Assembly (NCBI GenBank): GCA_902826795.1
Contig: CADEGD010000005.1
Span: 74,086 to 138,085, forward strand
Source of the DNA: an uncultured Acidobacteriota bacterium
GTDB lineage: Bacteria > Acidobacteriota > Blastocatellia > Pyrinomonadales > Pyrinomonadaceae
Reading direction: 5' to 3'
DNA: 64,000 bases
This document shows, piece after piece, positions 24,981 through 32,362 of the stretch (position 1 is the stretch's first letter; the number at the start of each line of letters is the position of its first letter). The translations under genes were made by a program, and so were the position numbers. The notes below the pieces were generated by a model. The model was not told the origin of the DNA. It saw only the letters and a program-made list of their open reading frames with translations, and did not search any database.

Positions 24981-25208
24981 CTAATGGTGATGGTCGTCTT
25001 CCGCGACCTCTTTCAGCTTCGAAATATCCAGCAGCTTCGAGAAATCGTCGAAGTGGAACATCGTGTCGTCCTTGCAGTGATCGCAGAAGAACGTTACGTC
25101 ATCTGCAAGGTACATATTCTTCAAGTGATATGCGATAAAACATCCGTAGCAGCGCTGTATGCGCTTGCCGAATTCTTTAAGAACTTCTGTATTTGCCGTA
25201 GTTTCCAT
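24981..25208 (-). CDS. Small protein with two CxxC pairs
   Basis: 75 residues. Two pairs, RCYGC and FCDHC, suggest a zinc ribbon, and the tail is acidic and His-rich (EDDHHH). It lies 8 bases before the FHA protein gene on the same strand, so the two are likely cotranscribed. I do not recognise the family. Confidence 0.6.
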   Translation of the reverse strand: METTANTEVLKEFGKRIQRCYGCFIAYHLKNMYLADDVTFFCDHCKDDTMFHFDDFSKLLDISKLKEVAEDDHHH

Positions 25209-25296
25209 GCTGCGAAAGAAAATTCTAGCATATCGGCTTCCTCAGAATCCGCTTGCAATCGGTTGGCGAATATGGTTTCTTAATAATCAAACGCAA

Positions 25297-25365
25297 ATGT
25301 TGAAAGCCTCGCTTCACATTCACCTCTGCCATCATCACGTGCACACCATCCGGCGCGTGGGATAA
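25297..25365 (+). CDS. hisL: Histidine-rich leader peptide of the his operon (attenuator candidate)
   Basis: A 22-codon frame, ATG 25297 to TAA 25365, encodes MLKASLHIHLCHHHVHTIRR plus VG. It has six His within ten residues, written with both CAC and CAT codons, and ends 83 bases before hisG. This is the classic form of a his-operon attenuation leader: ribosome stalling at the His run would sense charged histidyl-tRNA. Downstream, 25373-25379 (ACAAAAC) can pair with 25433-25439 (GTTTTGT) just before CTTTTT, a weak terminator-like arrangement. No clear Shine-Dalgarno precedes the ATG. Confidence 0.75.
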   Translation: MLKASLHIHLCHHHVHTIRRVG

Positions 25366-25448
25366 ACTTTTTACAAAACAAGTAATCAGATTTCAGGCGC
25401 AAAGGAACTTCGAGAAAAGTTTCAACGGCGTCGTTTTGTCTTTTTATC

Positions 25449-26303
25449 ATGAAACTAAAGATCGCATTGCAAAGATCAGGAAAGTTGGCCGAGGGCTCAA
25501 AAGAGCTGTTGCGAAAATGCGGCATCGGTTTTTCGAACGGTGGTGACAAACTGCGGGCCGAAGCCTCCGACTTTCCACTGGAAATATTCTTCCTTCGCGA
25601 CGACGACATTCCAGACTATGTTGCCGACGGCGTCGCGGACATCGGGATCGTGGGAGAAAACATTCTTGCCGAGGACCCCAAGAATGTTGAAATACTCGAA
25701 AAGCTGGGCTTTGGAAGATGTCGGCTCTCGATCGCCGTGCCGAAGTCTTTTGAATTTGCCAGCATAAAGGACTTCGCCGGAAAGCGCATCGCGACGAGTT
25801 ATCCGATGGTTCTGAGCAAGTATCTGTCGGACCGCGGAGTTGCCGCCGACATCCACGAGATAAGTGGCTCCGTCGAAATCGCACCATCGATCGGGCTCGC
25901 CGACGCCGTCTGTGATCTTGTGAGTTCCGGAAGCACGCTGTTTTCCAATGGACTTCGCGAGGTGGAGACGGTTATGAATTCCGAGGCGGTACTGATCCGC
26001 CGGCCGTCTCTTGACGACGAACGATCGAACTTGCTCGACAAGCTTCTGTTTCGCATCCGCAGCGTTATGGCGGCGGAGCAGAATAAATACATTCTGCTGA
26101 ACGCCCCGTCGGATAAAGTTAATGCCATCATTTCGATCCTGCCCGGGATGAAAAGCCCGACGGTCGTTCCGCTGGCTGAATCTGGCTGGGTCTCGATCCA
26201 CTCTGTTATCAGCGAACACGATTTTTGGGAGGTCGTGGATAACCTCAAGCGAGCGGGTGCGGAAGGCATTTTGGTCTTGTCGATCGATCAAATGATCAGG
26301 TGA
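25449..26303 (+). CDS. hisG: ATP phosphoribosyltransferase, long form
   Basis: 284 residues. The first enzyme of histidine synthesis joins ATP and PRPP. Evidence: N-terminal LKIALQRSGKLAEGS, the PRPP-binding segment ISGSVEIAPSIGLADAVCDLV (read as two shorter motifs), and a C-terminal extension (about 215-284, SGWVSIHSVISEHDFWEVVD) corresponding to the histidine-binding regulatory domain. No hisZ is therefore needed. It is the first structural gene of the operon and follows the leader peptide. Confidence 0.95.
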   Translation: MKLKIALQRSGKLAEGSKELLRKCGIGFSNGGDKLRAEASDFPLEIFFLRDDDIPDYVADGVADIGIVGENILAEDPKNVEILEKLGFGRCRLSIAVPKSFEFASIKDFAGKRIATSYPMVLSKYLSDRGVAADIHEISGSVEIAPSIGLADAVCDLVSSGSTLFSNGLREVETVMNSEAVLIRRPSLDDERSNLLDKLLFRIRSVMAAEQNKYILLNAPSDKVNAIISILPGMKSPTVVPLAESGWVSIHSVISEHDFWEVVDNLKRAGAEGILVLSIDQMIR

Positions 26304-26306
26304 TTT

Positions 26307-27590
26307 ATGAAAGTTGTTGAGTTTCCACAGCGAGAAGACTGGACAGATATTGTAAAGCGTCCGGCAATCGACACTCGCAAGTTGAGCGAGTTTGTTGCCG
26401 CGACCCTGACTGAGGTTCGGCTCAAAGGCGATGATGCCGTGCGAAGGTTCACTAGCGAGTTCGACGCATTTGAGATCGACCAACTGGCGGTTGGCGAAGA
26501 CGAGTTCGTCGAAGCGGAGGCGGAAGTAACGGAGGAGTTGAAAGCCGCACTCGCGGTCGCAAAGGCGAATATCGAAAAGTTTCACGCTGCTGAAAATTCG
26601 GCACCCCAAAGAGTTGAAACAACTCCCGGTGTCGTTTGCTGGAAGCGATCGGTGCCGATCGACAAGGTCGGGCTCTACATTCCAGCCGGATCGGCGCCGC
26701 TTTTCTCGACCGTGCTTATGCTCGCTATTCCGGCCAGGCTGGCCGGCTGTGGTGAGATCGTGATGTGCTCGCCCGCCGGTCGCGATGGAAAGGTGAACGC
26801 GGCTACGCTTTATGCAGCGAAGCTTTGCGGGGTAACGAAGGTCTTTAAGATCGGCGGTACTCAAGCGGTCGCTGCCATGGCGTATGGAACTGAATCGGTT
26901 CCCGCCGTTTACAAGATATTCGGACCTGGAAATCAATACGTCACCGAGGCGAAACTTCAAGTTATGCGCGACGGCATCTCGATCGATATGCCAGCAGGCC
27001 CGTCCGAGGTTGCCGTGCTTGCGGACGACACCTGCGTGCCGGCATTCGTTGCCGCCGATCTGCTGTCGCAAGCCGAACACGGGCAGGACAGCCAAGTGAT
27101 CCTCGTAACAAATTCGCGAGAAGTCATTGATGGCGTCTTGGATGAGATCAGCAGACAGGTCGAACTTTTGCCGCGGCGTGAAACCGCTCGGGCTGCCCTT
27201 GCAAACTCGACGGCGATACTCGTTTCCACACTGGACGAAGGCCTCGATCTGCTGAACGAGTATGCAGCTGAGCATCTGATCCTCGCAGTTGAGAATGCCG
27301 AACAGATAGCCGAGCGGGTTACGAATGGCGGATCGATCTTTATCGGAAATTATTCCTGCGAAAGTGCGGGCGACTATGCGTCTGGAACTAATCATACGCT
27401 TCCCACAAACGGCGCCGCTCGTGCTTTCAGCGGCGTTTCGACGACGAGTTTTATGAAGACGATCACTTATCAAAAGCTGAGCGAGGACGGCATTCGAAAT
27501 CTCGGCTCGGTGATCGAAACGATGGCGGCGGCCGAGGGACTAGAAGCACACAGAAACGCGGTCGTGATCCGCCGGGAGTATTTGGGATGA
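26307..27590 (+). CDS. hisD: Histidinol dehydrogenase
   Basis: 427 residues. It carries out the two NAD-dependent oxidations of histidinol to histidine, the last steps. Motifs: YIPAGSAPLFSTVLM, FGPGNQYVTEAK, DMPAGPSEVAVLAD, the zinc-site SQAEHGQDSQV, and NHTLPTNGAARAFSGVS near the C-terminus. It starts 3 bases after the hisG stop. Confidence 0.96.
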   Translation: MKVVEFPQREDWTDIVKRPAIDTRKLSEFVAATLTEVRLKGDDAVRRFTSEFDAFEIDQLAVGEDEFVEAEAEVTEELKAALAVAKANIEKFHAAENSAPQRVETTPGVVCWKRSVPIDKVGLYIPAGSAPLFSTVLMLAIPARLAGCGEIVMCSPAGRDGKVNAATLYAAKLCGVTKVFKIGGTQAVAAMAYGTESVPAVYKIFGPGNQYVTEAKLQVMRDGISIDMPAGPSEVAVLADDTCVPAFVAADLLSQAEHGQDSQVILVTNSREVIDGVLDEISRQVELLPRRETARAALANSTAILVSTLDEGLDLLNEYAAEHLILAVENAEQIAERVTNGGSIFIGNYSCESAGDYASGTNHTLPTNGAARAFSGVSTTSFMKTITYQKLSEDGIRNLGSVIETMAAAEGLEAHRNAVVIRREYLG

Positions 27591-28636
27591 GCTTTGACTT
27601 AGACAGTTTAGTGCGTCCGAATATTCGTCGTCTGAAACCATATTCATCAGCTCGGTCGGAGTTTGCCGGCTCCGCAGAAGTTTTCCTGGACGCAAACGAG
27701 AACGCCTTAGGGTCAGCCGCGGACGGGCCATTCAATCGATATCCCGACCCATTGCAGAAAGAACTAAAGCGAAAAATTGCGACGCTCAAAGGTACTGAGC
27801 CGCAGAATATTTTCATCGGCAACGGCAGCGACGAGGCGATCGATCTTTTGTTTCGTATCTTCTGCAGGCCGGGCATAGATGGTTGCATCATCTGCCCACC
27901 GACATACGGAATGTACGAAGTTTCGGCGGACATTAACGATATAGCTGTAACCAAGATTCCGCTGACTCCCGACTTTCGACTCGACGTTCCATCCGTTCTG
28001 TCTGCGATAAACGCCGGGACAAAACTCATCTTCATATGCTCGCCAAACAACCCGACGGGAAACTTGATGGATCGCGAGGATGTCGTCAAGATCGCATCGG
28101 AGTTTCGAGGGGTCGTGGTCGTCGATGAGGCGTATATCGATTTCTCTTCATCCGCATCACTGATCGGTGAGATCGAAAATTTTCCGAATCTGGTCGTGCT
28201 CCAAACATTCTCGAAAGCTTGGGGAATGGCCGGACTTCGTGTCGGAATAGCCTTCGCGAACGTGGAGATCATCGGCCTGATGAATCGAGTAAAACCGCCG
28301 TACAACGTTAGCGGTATCGCACAGGACGCCGCCATAAATGCATCTCGCAGACTCGCAGATGTTGAGAATTGGATACGCCAGACACTTTTAGAGCGTGACC
28401 GCCTTACAGTCGGGCTTTCATCATTTCCATTCATGCAGACGATATACCCGAGCGATTCGAACTTTCTGCTCGTGAAGGTCGACGACGCGAACTCGATGTA
28501 CAAATATTTGCTGGCCGAAGGGATCGTAGTTCGCAACCGAAACAACGTCGCGCTTTGCGAAGGCTGTTTACGGATCACGGTCGGTACGCCGGATGAAAAC
28601 ACGCGTCTGCTGGAGGCATTGGAAAGATACATATGA
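27587..28636 (+). CDS. hisC: Histidinol-phosphate aminotransferase
   Basis: 349 residues, a PLP-dependent class I/II aminotransferase. Evidence: [10 protein letters not shown] near the N-terminus, [31 protein letters not shown] and the PLP-Lys motif [14 protein letters not shown]. It overlaps hisD by four bases (ATGA), indicating translational coupling. Confidence 0.95.
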
Positions 28637-29727
28637 AACGAGTTCTTTTTATCGACCGCGACGGCACGATCATCCGTGAACCGCATGACTTTCAGGTCGA
28701 TTTGCTCGAGAAGCTTCGCTTTCTTCCCGGTGCGATCACGAATCTCGCGAAGATCGCGAAAGAGACGGAATACGCGATCGTAATGGTGACGAATCAGGAC
28801 GGCATGGGAACCGAAGGCTTTCCCGAATCCGCTTTCTACCCCGCACAAAATTTTGTCCTGCAAACGCTCGCTGATGAAGGAGTTGAATTTGCGGACGTGT
28901 ATGTCGATACCACCTTCGAGCACGAGAACTTGCCAACGCGAAAGCCCGGCACGGGCATGCTTGCTAAATATCTTACGGGCGAGTATGACCTCGCGAACTC
29001 GTACGTCATCGGTGACCGGCCGACCGATGTTCAACTCGCCCGCAATCTCGAATCGAAAGCGATCTACATCCGCAACGAAAACTTTCCGTTGGACGGTGCA
29101 GATGCGTTTGTGGTCGAAACCTGGAACGAAATCTATGAAATCCTCCGGCGGCCCGATCGAAAAGTCACACATCGACGCACGACGAGGGAAACCGACATCG
29201 CGGTTGAACTGCACCTCGACGGCACGGGCAAGGCCGCGATCTCCACCGGCATTTCGTTCTTCGACCATATGCTTGAACAGATCGCCCGTCACGGTTCGAT
29301 CGATCTGATTATCGAGGCGAAAGGCGACCTTCATATCGACGAACACCACACCATCGAAGATGTTGCGATAACGCTTGGCGAGGCTTTCTCGCTTGCAATC
29401 GCGGATAAACGCGGCATTGAAAGATACGGTTTTTCCCTGCCTATGGACGATTGCCTTGCGCAAGTTGCTATCGATTTCGGTGGACGAAACTGGATCGTTT
29501 GGGAAGCCGAATTCAAACGGGAAATGATCGGCGAAATGCCGACTGAGATGTTTTTCCATTTCTTCAAGTCGTTTTCGGATAAAGCTCTCTGCAACTTGAA
29601 TATAAAGGCCGAGGGAACAATCGAACACCACAAGATCGAGGCGATCTTCAAGGCATTTGCCAAAGCGATCAAGATGGCGATCAAACGCGACGGAAGCGAA
29701 TTGCCGAGCACCAAAGGAGTTCTGTGA
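28633..29727 (+). CDS. hisB: Bifunctional histidinol-phosphatase / imidazoleglycerol-phosphate dehydratase
   Basis: 364 residues. Residues 1-165 are a HAD phosphatase ([33 protein letters not shown]). Residues 172-364 are the dehydratase ([58 protein letters not shown]). In the E. coli enzyme the phosphatase part holds a Cys/His zinc loop; here that segment reads [13 protein letters not shown] and lacks the cysteines. The fused form is best known from gammaproteobacteria. It overlaps hisC and hisH by four bases each. Confidence 0.95.
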
Positions 29728-30308
29728 AAGTTGCGATTGTGAAATACAACGCCGGGAACACCGCGTCGGTTGCGAACGCGCTCACGCGTATTGGCGTAGA
29801 GCCGTTGATAACGGACGATGCCGAGGTTCTGAAGTCGGCCAACAAAGTGATCTTCCCCGGTGTGGGCGAAGCCTCGACCGCGATGGCCTATCTTCGCGAA
29901 CGCGGGCTGGATGAAGTGATCTGTTCGTTGAAACAGCCGGTGCTCGGAATATGTCTCGGCATGCAGCTTTTGTGTTCTTCGTCCGATGAGAACCAGACGT
30001 CTTGCCTCGGCGTATTGCCGACGCGCGTAAAGCTTTTCAAAAGCAACGGACTTAAGGTGCCGCACATGGGTTGGAATCAGATCAGCGATCTGCAAGCTCC
30101 TATTTTCTCCGGGATTGCTGACGGCTCGTTCGTATACTTCGTGCATAGTTACTACGTCAACCTCGACAGTCAAACGACCGCCGCATGCACGTACGGAGAA
30201 AAATTCAGTGCCGCTTTGTCTTTCAAAAATTTTCACGCCGTGCAGTTTCATGTTGAGAAGTCTGGCCCGATTGGCCAGCGGATATTGGAGAACTTCCTCA
30301 ACTTATGA
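29724..30308 (+). CDS. hisH: Imidazole glycerol phosphate synthase, glutaminase subunit
   Basis: 194 residues, class I glutamine amidotransferase. The nucleophile motif is [11 protein letters not shown] and the His/Glu pair is in QFHVEKSG. It supplies ammonia to HisF. GTG start at 29724 overlaps the hisB stop (GTGA); there is no better start and the N-terminus [11 protein letters not shown] is as expected. Confidence 0.95.
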
Positions 30309-31027
30309 TCGAGATCATTCCGGCTATCGACGTTATCGACGGAAAATGCGTGCGTCTGACGCATGGCGATTTTGCGCAGAAAACTGTCTACGCAGACGAC
30401 CCCGTCGAGGTCGCGAAACGGTTTGAACAGCTTGGCCTTCGACGGCTTCACATGGTCGATTTGGACGGAGCGAAACAAGGCAAACCGCAGAACATTTCCG
30501 TTCTCGCACGAGTCACTTCCGCAACGAAACTCTCGATCGATTTTGGCGGCGGCGTTAAATCGTCTGACGACGTGAACGCCGTGCTCGACGCCGGTGCGGC
30601 GATAGTAAACGTCGGCAGCGTCGCCGTTCGTGAGCCCGATCTTTTTCTTGGATGGTTGGAACATTTCGGCGGCGATCGCATCCTGCTCGGAGCAGACTGC
30701 AAGGACGAGAAAGTTTCGATCGATGGTTGGCAGACCGAGACGACCGTCTCGATATTCGAGTTGCTGCAGAACTATTCGGCAAAAGGCGTCAGCTCGGCGT
30801 TCGTGACGGACATCGGCCGCGACGGAGCGATGATCGGGCCTTCCATTGAGCTCTATTCGAACATCCGCAAGATCGTGCCCGGCCTCGATCTTATCGCAAG
30901 TGGCGGCGTGAGCTCGATCACAGATGTCGAAGAACTGGAGCGGGTCGGATGCTCGGGCGTGATCGTTGGGAAGGCCATATACGAAGGCCGGATCACCGAC
31001 GACGAACTTAAAATGTATGCTCGCTAA
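30305..31027 (+). CDS. hisA: Phosphoribosylformimino-5-aminoimidazole carboxamide ribotide isomerase
   Basis: 240 residues, TIM barrel. It begins [20 protein letters not shown] with the catalytic Asp, and the second Asp sits in [14 protein letters not shown]. It overlaps hisH by four bases and hisF by eleven. Confidence 0.95.
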
Positions 31028-31772
31028 ACGTATAATTCCCTGCCTCGATGTGAAGGACGGCCGCACCGTCAAGGGCACGAACTTCGTCGGCCTTCGCGAC
31101 GCGGGCGACCCGGCCGAGCTTGCCGAAAAATATTCCGCCGATGGCGCGGACGAGCTGGTCTTTCTCGACATTTCGGCGACCAACGAAGGCCGCCAAACCT
31201 TTGCTTCGCTGGTCAGCAAGATCGCCCGGCTGATCAATATTCCGTTCACCGTCGGTGGCGGGATAACGGCGTCGGACGACATCGCAAGGCTTCTCGACGC
31301 GGGAGCCGACAAGGTTTCGATCAACACGGCGGCAGTCCGCGATCCGGCGTTGATCGAGACGGCGGCGAAGAATTTCGGATCGCAGTGCATTGTATTGGCG
31401 GTCGATGCGAAGAGGACCGATCTTGGCTGGAAGGTTTTCCTCAACGGTGGCAGAGTCGCTACCGACCTCGACGCGACCGAGTGGATGAAACGCGGCGTCG
31501 GGCTCGGTGCGGGTGAGATCTTGCTGACATCGATGAACGCGGATGGAACTAAAGATGGCTTCGAGATCGAACTCACCCGAAGCATTTCGGAAGCGGTCGG
31601 CGTTCCGGTTATCGCCTCGGGCGGTGCAGGTGATCGAGATCACTTCGCCGATGTTTTCGTCAGAGGAAAGGCCGATGCAGCTCTCGCGGCGAGCGTTTTT
31701 CATTACGGCGAGATCGAGATACCGGAGCTGAAAAGTTTTCTCCGGATGCGTGGAGTTGAGGTGCGAGTATGA
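31017..31772 (+). CDS. hisF: Imidazole glycerol phosphate synthase, cyclase subunit
   Basis: 251 residues, TIM barrel. The ATG at 31017 gives the conserved N-terminus [20 protein letters not shown]; the frame extends 51 bases further upstream inside hisA but without family similarity. Later motifs: [28 protein letters not shown] with the catalytic Asp, and VIASGGAG. Confidence 0.95.
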
Positions 31773-32362
31773 ACATCGATTTTTCCAAGTATGCCGACGG
31801 GCTTGTACCGGCGATCGTTCAGGATGCGGCGACGCGTAACGTGCTGATGCTCGGCTTTATGAATGCCGAGGCAATTGAACTCACAGAATCGACCAGCCGA
31901 GTCACGTTCTTTTCGCGGTCGAAACAGCGGCTTTGGATCAAGGGCGAAACAAGCGGCAACTTTCTCGAGGTCGTATCTATCACGCCCGACTGCGATAACG
32001 ATACGCTTCTGATCAAAGCACGCACAAACGGGCCGGTCTGCCATACCGGATCGCAGACTTGTTTCGGTGATGTTGACAGATCCCTCGCGTTTCTTGCCGA
32101 ACTAGAATCGGTGATCGCAAGCCGTATGACCGAACCCGCCGAAGGCTCGTACGTTTCCAAGCTCTATGCAAAAGGCCTGAACAAGATCGCCCAGAAGGTT
32201 GGGGAAGAGGCCGTCGAAACCGTGATCGCAGCGAAGGACGACGACCTCGACGCATTCAAGAACGAAGCCGCCGATCTGCTGTTCCACTATCTCGTTCTGC
32301 TTCGAGTCAAGGGCGTTGATCTCGGCGAGGTTGTCTCCGTCCTCAAAGAACGGAAACGGTAA
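31769..32362 (+). CDS. hisI: Bifunctional phosphoribosyl-AMP cyclohydrolase / phosphoribosyl-ATP pyrophosphatase
   Basis: 197 residues, the HisIE fusion. The cyclohydrolase part (1-105) has [11 protein letters not shown], the metal-binding [10 protein letters not shown] and the Cys motif CHTGSQTCF. The pyrophosphatase part (112-197) has [20 protein letters not shown] and [13 protein letters not shown]. It overlaps hisF by four bases and ends the operon; repeats follow, not another his gene. Confidence 0.95.

Follow-up and report, generated by a model that had tools for sequence, protein, structure and literature searches.

The question raised by this locus is whether a short, histidine-rich reading frame located just upstream of hisG is the leader of an attenuator that controls the histidine operon or a fortuitous run of histidine codons. 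The locus lies in a window of 64 kb (the whole stretch of DNA that was analyzed), from a genome that is placed by named GTDB neighbors in Pyrinomonadaceae (Blastocatellia, Acidobacteriota). The operon is complete, compact and of the enteric type, with the order hisGDC(NB)HAF(IE) and all eight histidine genes present. The leader and the genes that follow it are:

25297..25365, plus strand: leader ORF hisL, MLKASLHIHLCHHHVHTIRRVG, with ATG at 25297, 22 codons and TAA at 25363-25365
25449..26303, plus strand: hisG of the long form, which includes the regulatory C-terminal domain (above the cut-offs of TIGR00070 and TIGR03455)
26307..32362, plus strand: hisD, hisC, bifunctional hisB, hisH, hisA, hisF and bifunctional hisIE (NCBIfam matches above cut-off)

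The comparative evidence described below indicates that this region is very probably a ribosome-mediated transcription attenuator of the his operon. The original prediction described a frame of 22 codons starting at 25297, with six histidines within ten residues, that ends 83 bases before hisG and is very unlikely to be a chance occurrence. On re-reading, the frame is exact and the distance of 83 nt between the hisL stop codon and the hisG ATG (25449) is reproduced. In the six-frame translation of the 64-kb window, a run of at least six histidines in ten residues occurs only once, namely in hisL, where these six are all the histidines of the peptide. In dinucleotide-type shuffles of the region 25181-25448, such a run, even with no start codon required, appeared in 21 of 20,000 sequences, so that chance alone is an unlikely explanation, as had been claimed.

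Conservation of the leader among relatives removes the question of chance altogether. This form of HisG is present, at full or partial length, in 34 of the 119 genomes of the family; one of these (L011), in which the contig starts 20 nt before the match, was left out, yielding 33 relatives with readable upstream DNA. All 33 encode a short His-rich ORF upstream of hisG, with 4 to 10 histidines per leader and, where both ends could be set, 69-124 nt between the leader stop codon and the hisG start, at a HisG identity to the window protein of 63-82%. Close relatives devoid of the leader had been named in advance as the observation that would speak against attenuation; there are none in this set. 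The histidine codons of the 33 leaders include 138 CAT and 87 CAC. Such free use of both codons implies that it is the coding for histidine that is conserved, with the nucleotides free to change. In the other Acidobacteriota that were read, no His-rich leader precedes the short form of hisG. The same holds for hisG in two loci of another Acidobacteriota family that encode the long form of HisG (L022 and L023). In the place of the leader, these two loci contain, by eye, a frame of the TrpR/HisR-like (YerC-type) family directly before hisG, which can be likened to HisR in Firmicutes.

The leader RNA of the window and of nearly all relatives contains four recurring segments, denoted A to D, which are predicted to form three helices: a pause hairpin (A:B), an antiterminator (B:C) and a terminator (C:D). 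The first three segments were delineated by folding of the window sequence:

25335..25342, plus strand: segment A, within the codons of His13-His16; 5' arm of the pause hairpin
25353..25366, plus strand: segment B, the last leader codons and the stop codon; serves as the 3' arm in the pause hairpin and as the 5' arm in the antiterminator
25382..25400, plus strand: segment C, 3' arm of the antiterminator, with 25396-25400 as the 5' arm of the terminator

In the relatives, segment A lies inside the histidine codons (typically, CACGCG), segment B where the leader ORF ends (typically, CGCGTGAACTAAT), segment C downstream of the ORF (typically, ATTAGTTTT...ACGCG) and segment D right before the U-tract (typically, GGCGTC). 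The predicted pause hairpin of the window pairs 25335-25342 with 25353-25360 and thus overlaps the regulatory histidine codons, and in the predicted antiterminator, 25353-25356 pair with 25397-25400, accompanied by inner pairs. Bases 25397-25400 are common to the antiterminator and the terminator, which makes the two predicted structures mutually exclusive. Folding of the region for alternative hairpins, suggested as a check of the original prediction, recovers these three helices. A point against the model is that the overall stability of the whole leader RNA of the window is not exceptional (z -1.49).

Changes on the two sides of each helix are matched across species. The A:B arms read TCACGCGC/GCGCGTGA in L002, TCATGCGC/GCGCATGA in L012 and GGCGCGA/TCGCGCC in L098. 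The B:C arms read AACTGAT/ATTAGTT in L007, GATGTGAA/TTCATATC in L004 and TGAGCT/AGCTCA in L101. For C:D, GAACTTG/CAAG alternates with GAACCT/AGGTTC. A MAFFT alignment of the whole leaders was dropped given that the helices were poorly aligned; co-variation was assessed by an alignment-free test in which each arm is paired both with its own partner and with partners from other species, and the resulting duplex energies are compared (20,000 permutations, which do not model the tree and correct only in part for shared ancestry). Own partners pair better in all three helices: the mean energy is -11.7 versus -10.0 for A:B (z -5.2; 0 of 20,000 permutations), -11.4 versus -9.7 for B:C (z -4.2; 1 of 20,000) and -13.3 versus -8.2 for C:D (z -9.7; 0 of 20,000). 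The last value is inflated because the C:D arms were picked by folding each sequence, whereas position and motif served to choose those of A:B and B:C. The control pairings, for which the model has no role, show no preference for own partners in this test (z 0.6 for A:C, -0.1 for B:D and -0.5 for A:D). With the set reduced to 9 or 7 dissimilar leaders, the p values of the three helices are about 0.03 to 0.00005, and those of the control pairings remain above 0.05. Comparison of the related spacers, which had also been proposed as a check, thus reveals a conserved histidine run, synonymous drift of its codons and co-varying stems.

The position of the leader stop codon in the relatives fits a terminating ribosome that would cover segment B. 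This segment starts 9 nt before the stop codon in 23 of the 33 relatives, and in none of the 33 is its start more than 14 nt away from the stop codon in either direction; the last histidine of the longest run is located 12-21 nt before B in 29 of the 33.

The predicted terminator of the window consists of two features:

25396..25432, plus strand: terminator hairpin C:D, pairing 25396-25400 with 25428-25432 and 25404-25410 with 25417-25423 (by folding)
25433..25445, plus strand: U-rich tract GTTTTGTCTTTTT, separated from hisG by 3 nt (by sequence)

This hairpin region has a predicted free energy of -15.2 kcal/mol compared with a shuffle mean of -2.9. Together with its U-rich tract GTTTTGTCTTTTT, the hairpin supersedes the 7-bp AT-rich stem (25373-25379 with 25433-25439) that was originally suggested as the terminator. 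A terminator-like hairpin with a T-rich tail precedes hisG in 32 of the 33 relatives, in each case more stable than the shuffle mean; the clearest cases are L020 and L021, with long stems and a T run that leads straight into the hisG ATG. The sole exception is L018, in which the leader and A:B are present but there is no terminator. The last 60 nt before hisG in L018 contain the only strong Shine-Dalgarno-like site of the set (GGAG, -6.6 kcal/mol), and this system possibly has switched to translational control.

The effect of ribosome position was modelled in the window fold, with the ribosome taken, on textbook grounds, to shield about 15 nt beyond its A site. With the A site on His14 and D not yet made, the minimum-energy fold is the antiterminator (-15.1); with D present, the antiterminator still forms (-22.7) and the outer stem of the terminator does not. 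A ribosome at the leader stop codon leaves the terminator to form (-17.5), and in the fold with no ribosome, both A:B and the terminator are formed (-33.0). In the relatives, the stretch up to C folds with a mean of -14.3 kcal/mol when B is free versus -2.4 when B is masked.

These alternatives point to the following sequence of events. Transcription would begin no more than a few bases from the leader ATG, with a ribosome following the polymerase. When charged tRNA-His is plentiful, the ribosome would reach the stop codon and cover B, so that C:D could pair and RNA polymerase would stop in the U-tract before hisG. Upon a shortage of charged tRNA-His, the ribosome would stall in the histidine run, on segment A, and B:C would pair before D is made, such that no terminator forms and the operon is transcribed. 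If the leader is not translated, A:B would form and lock B, leading to termination. We infer the response to histidine from this anatomy. Attenuation control, as originally proposed, is strongly supported by sequence comparison, given the histidine run in 33 of 33 relatives, the co-varying and mutually exclusive helices, and the terminator-like hairpin in 32 of 33.

The start of the transcript is indicated by a putative promoter:

25254..25280, plus strand: candidate sigma-70-like promoter, formed by TTGCAA and, about 17-22 nt downstream of it, an A/T-rich -10 region

About 29 of the 33 relatives have a TTGC-like motif at a distance of 38-42 nt upstream of the leader ATG (44 nt in the window), and an A/T-rich -10 region is situated in between, which suggests that transcription starts about 3-9 nt upstream of the leader ATG. 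A good Shine-Dalgarno sequence is absent at both the leader and hisG in the 33 relatives, except for hisG of L018. Among the long ORFs of the window, 10% are preceded by a Shine-Dalgarno sequence of -6 kcal/mol or better, against a background of 4%; a nearly leaderless leader ORF would be in keeping with this genome, where few ORFs have such sites. The promoter region, of roughly 90 nt, is common to the his leader and a small divergent gene on the minus strand (about 24990-25209) that encodes CxxC pairs and appears zinc-ribbon-like by eye.

The main effect of the same alternative helices could be to mask or expose the hisG start, and not to terminate transcription. In most relatives, a mere 6-27 nt separate the hisG ATG from the hairpin, and in the window, 3 nt separate it from the U-tract, so that an effect on translation is possible; L018 has no terminator and possesses the strong Shine-Dalgarno-like site. 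Such translational attenuation nevertheless appears unlikely as the main mode of action: the hairpin does not include the hisG ATG, 32 of 33 relatives have a T-rich tract after this hairpin, and in all relatives but L018, there is no Shine-Dalgarno sequence to hide.

Two further explanations, both of which we consider highly improbable, dispense with histidine sensing by the leader. The histidine-rich product might be a small protein that has a separate role and no part in controlling the operon; metal binding, of which poly-His peptides are capable, is an example of such a role. However, the leader precedes the long-form hisG operon and is missing before the short-form hisG of the other Acidobacteriota that were read, and the ORF is interwoven with the alternative helices, its stop codon falling at B. 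It is equally hard to believe that the leader is an upstream ORF that only feeds ribosomes to hisG by reinitiation. Although several phyla, Acidobacteria among them, show an enrichment of gene-proximal leader ORFs (PMC4833913), the leader and hisG are separated by 69-124 nt, compared with a reinitiation peak at 10-16 nt, and reinitiation would account for neither the histidine run nor the co-varying helices.

The predicted attenuator resembles the enteric his attenuator (hisL; RF00514 His_leader), for which the model with the ribosome as the sensor is summarized in PMC9413887. In both, a leader with histidine codons precedes hisG of the same compact eight-gene operon, and pause, antiterminator and terminator helices are combined with a sensing ribosome. 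The differences are that, in the window, the histidines are dispersed and broken up by other residues, the predicted terminator has a lower GC content and directly adjoins hisG, and the leader ORF is apparently nearly leaderless. Membership in the Rfam family was rejected: RF00514 gave no match at the gathering threshold in the window (none even at E up to 10) or in eight other Pyrinomonadaceae his loci, and it matched the his leader of Erwinia (L106), used as a control, with 104.8 bits. The system thus appears to work like the enteric attenuator but outside of that RNA family. The suspicion that the mechanism itself could differ from the enteric one is not borne out, since the logic of A, B, C and D is the same and only the sequence, the Rfam family and the start-site geometry differ.

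Attenuators of his genes have also been predicted in Firmicutes, namely in the Bacillus cereus group, Peptostreptococcaceae and Erysipelotrichales (PMC9413887). Compared by description, these similarly combine a His-rich leader with alternative hairpins predicted by comparison but belong to another phylum and another operon lineage. The nearest relatives of this HisG outside the family come from Bacteroidota, at about 52-62% identity. Several of the Bacteroidota loci (L041, L045, L047, L049, L051, L061 and others) also encode a short His-rich ORF before hisG, whereas no U-tract terminator of the Pyrinomonadaceae kind is apparent there by eye. Two other RNA patterns are discernible by eye upstream of hisG in Bacteroidota his operons (L041, L045 and L048-L055): in one group, an ACTCC...GGAGTG hairpin over the stop codon, and in another, a long-range AGTGGG/CCCACT match. 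Some amino-acid attenuators were reportedly predicted in Bacteroidetes/Chlorobi in the 2004 FEMS survey of Vitreschak and others. In a paper on Bacteroidota his genes, leader peptides are unmentioned (PMC8305728). Another his attenuator is likely present in an unclassified bacterium (L064), in which the leader MTRCISIFAVAGTSHGHHHTEDDPWRRTR and the strong terminator AAGGCCCGCCTCAGGCGGGCCTTTTTTTTT are found within 200 nt before hisG. With regard to the nearly leaderless start, a parallel exists in mycobacteria, where leaderless attenuators with a leader peptide are known; as is predicted for the window, their leader ORF begins close to, or directly at, the 5' end of the RNA, but these attenuators respond to cysteine and belong to another phylum.

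The HisG proteins of the family form a single clade (support 99) among Bacteroidota sequences in a quick tree, and the other Acidobacteriota of the class that were searched mostly have a different HisG, with about 28-42% identity over part of the length. The simplest reading of this phylogeny is that the operon was exchanged between Bacteroidota and the ancestor of Pyrinomonadaceae, in either direction, followed by long vertical descent. This would be a case of a compact his operon changing phylum, with a leader RNA unlike that of its nearest relatives.

Similar arrangements are detectable in front of other amino-acid operons. In 7 of 8 genomes of the window's genus, short ORFs with clustered tryptophans are located upstream of trpE, about 130-270 nt before the trpE match (L130, from contig C10 of the window's genome, and L126, L127, L131, L133, L134 and L135; L134 by eye). 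The clusters are WRW, WGWW, WWAW, WRWSW and WW, with W..WRW in the window's own genome, and in most of these genomes, a strong hairpin resembling an intrinsic terminator follows before trpE. A trp attenuator is thus probable across the genus. Upstream of ilvB, in L142 (contig C2 of the window's genome) and L147, Ile/Val-rich short ORFs (VGISIIVII and FISVVVIII) are followed by strong terminators and are probably parts of branched-chain attenuators; L145 has a weaker Ile/Val-rich candidate. No convincing Leu-rich leader was found before leuA in the genus.

Leader-peptide attenuation has been described or predicted in Proteobacteria, Actinobacteria and some Firmicutes. Of the predicted acidobacterial attenuators in a survey from 2010, almost none had an assigned function (PMC2965389), and in the literature covered, to which subscription papers contribute little, no description of a his leader in Acidobacteria or Pyrinomonadaceae was found. 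The mechanism, accordingly, is already known, and its occurrence in Acidobacteriota is new. A whole family of mostly uncultured Acidobacteriota would have a comparatively well-supported his attenuator, in addition to the probable trp and ilv ones. The his attenuator would imply transcription-translation coupling in this phylum, and a simple annotation rule for amino-acid operons in such genomes follows. The chances seem to us evenly divided on a broader proposal, namely that Pyrinomonadaceae widely use ribosome-mediated attenuation (his, trp and branched-chain) with nearly leaderless, Shine-Dalgarno-free leader ORFs, and that the his attenuator was built anew around the operon exchanged with Bacteroidota, its three-helix logic being independent of the enteric one. 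Within the genus of the window, hisG is absent in 25 of 41 genomes and hisD in 21 of 41; several of these genomes are 97-99% complete, and much of the genus may consist of histidine auxotrophs.
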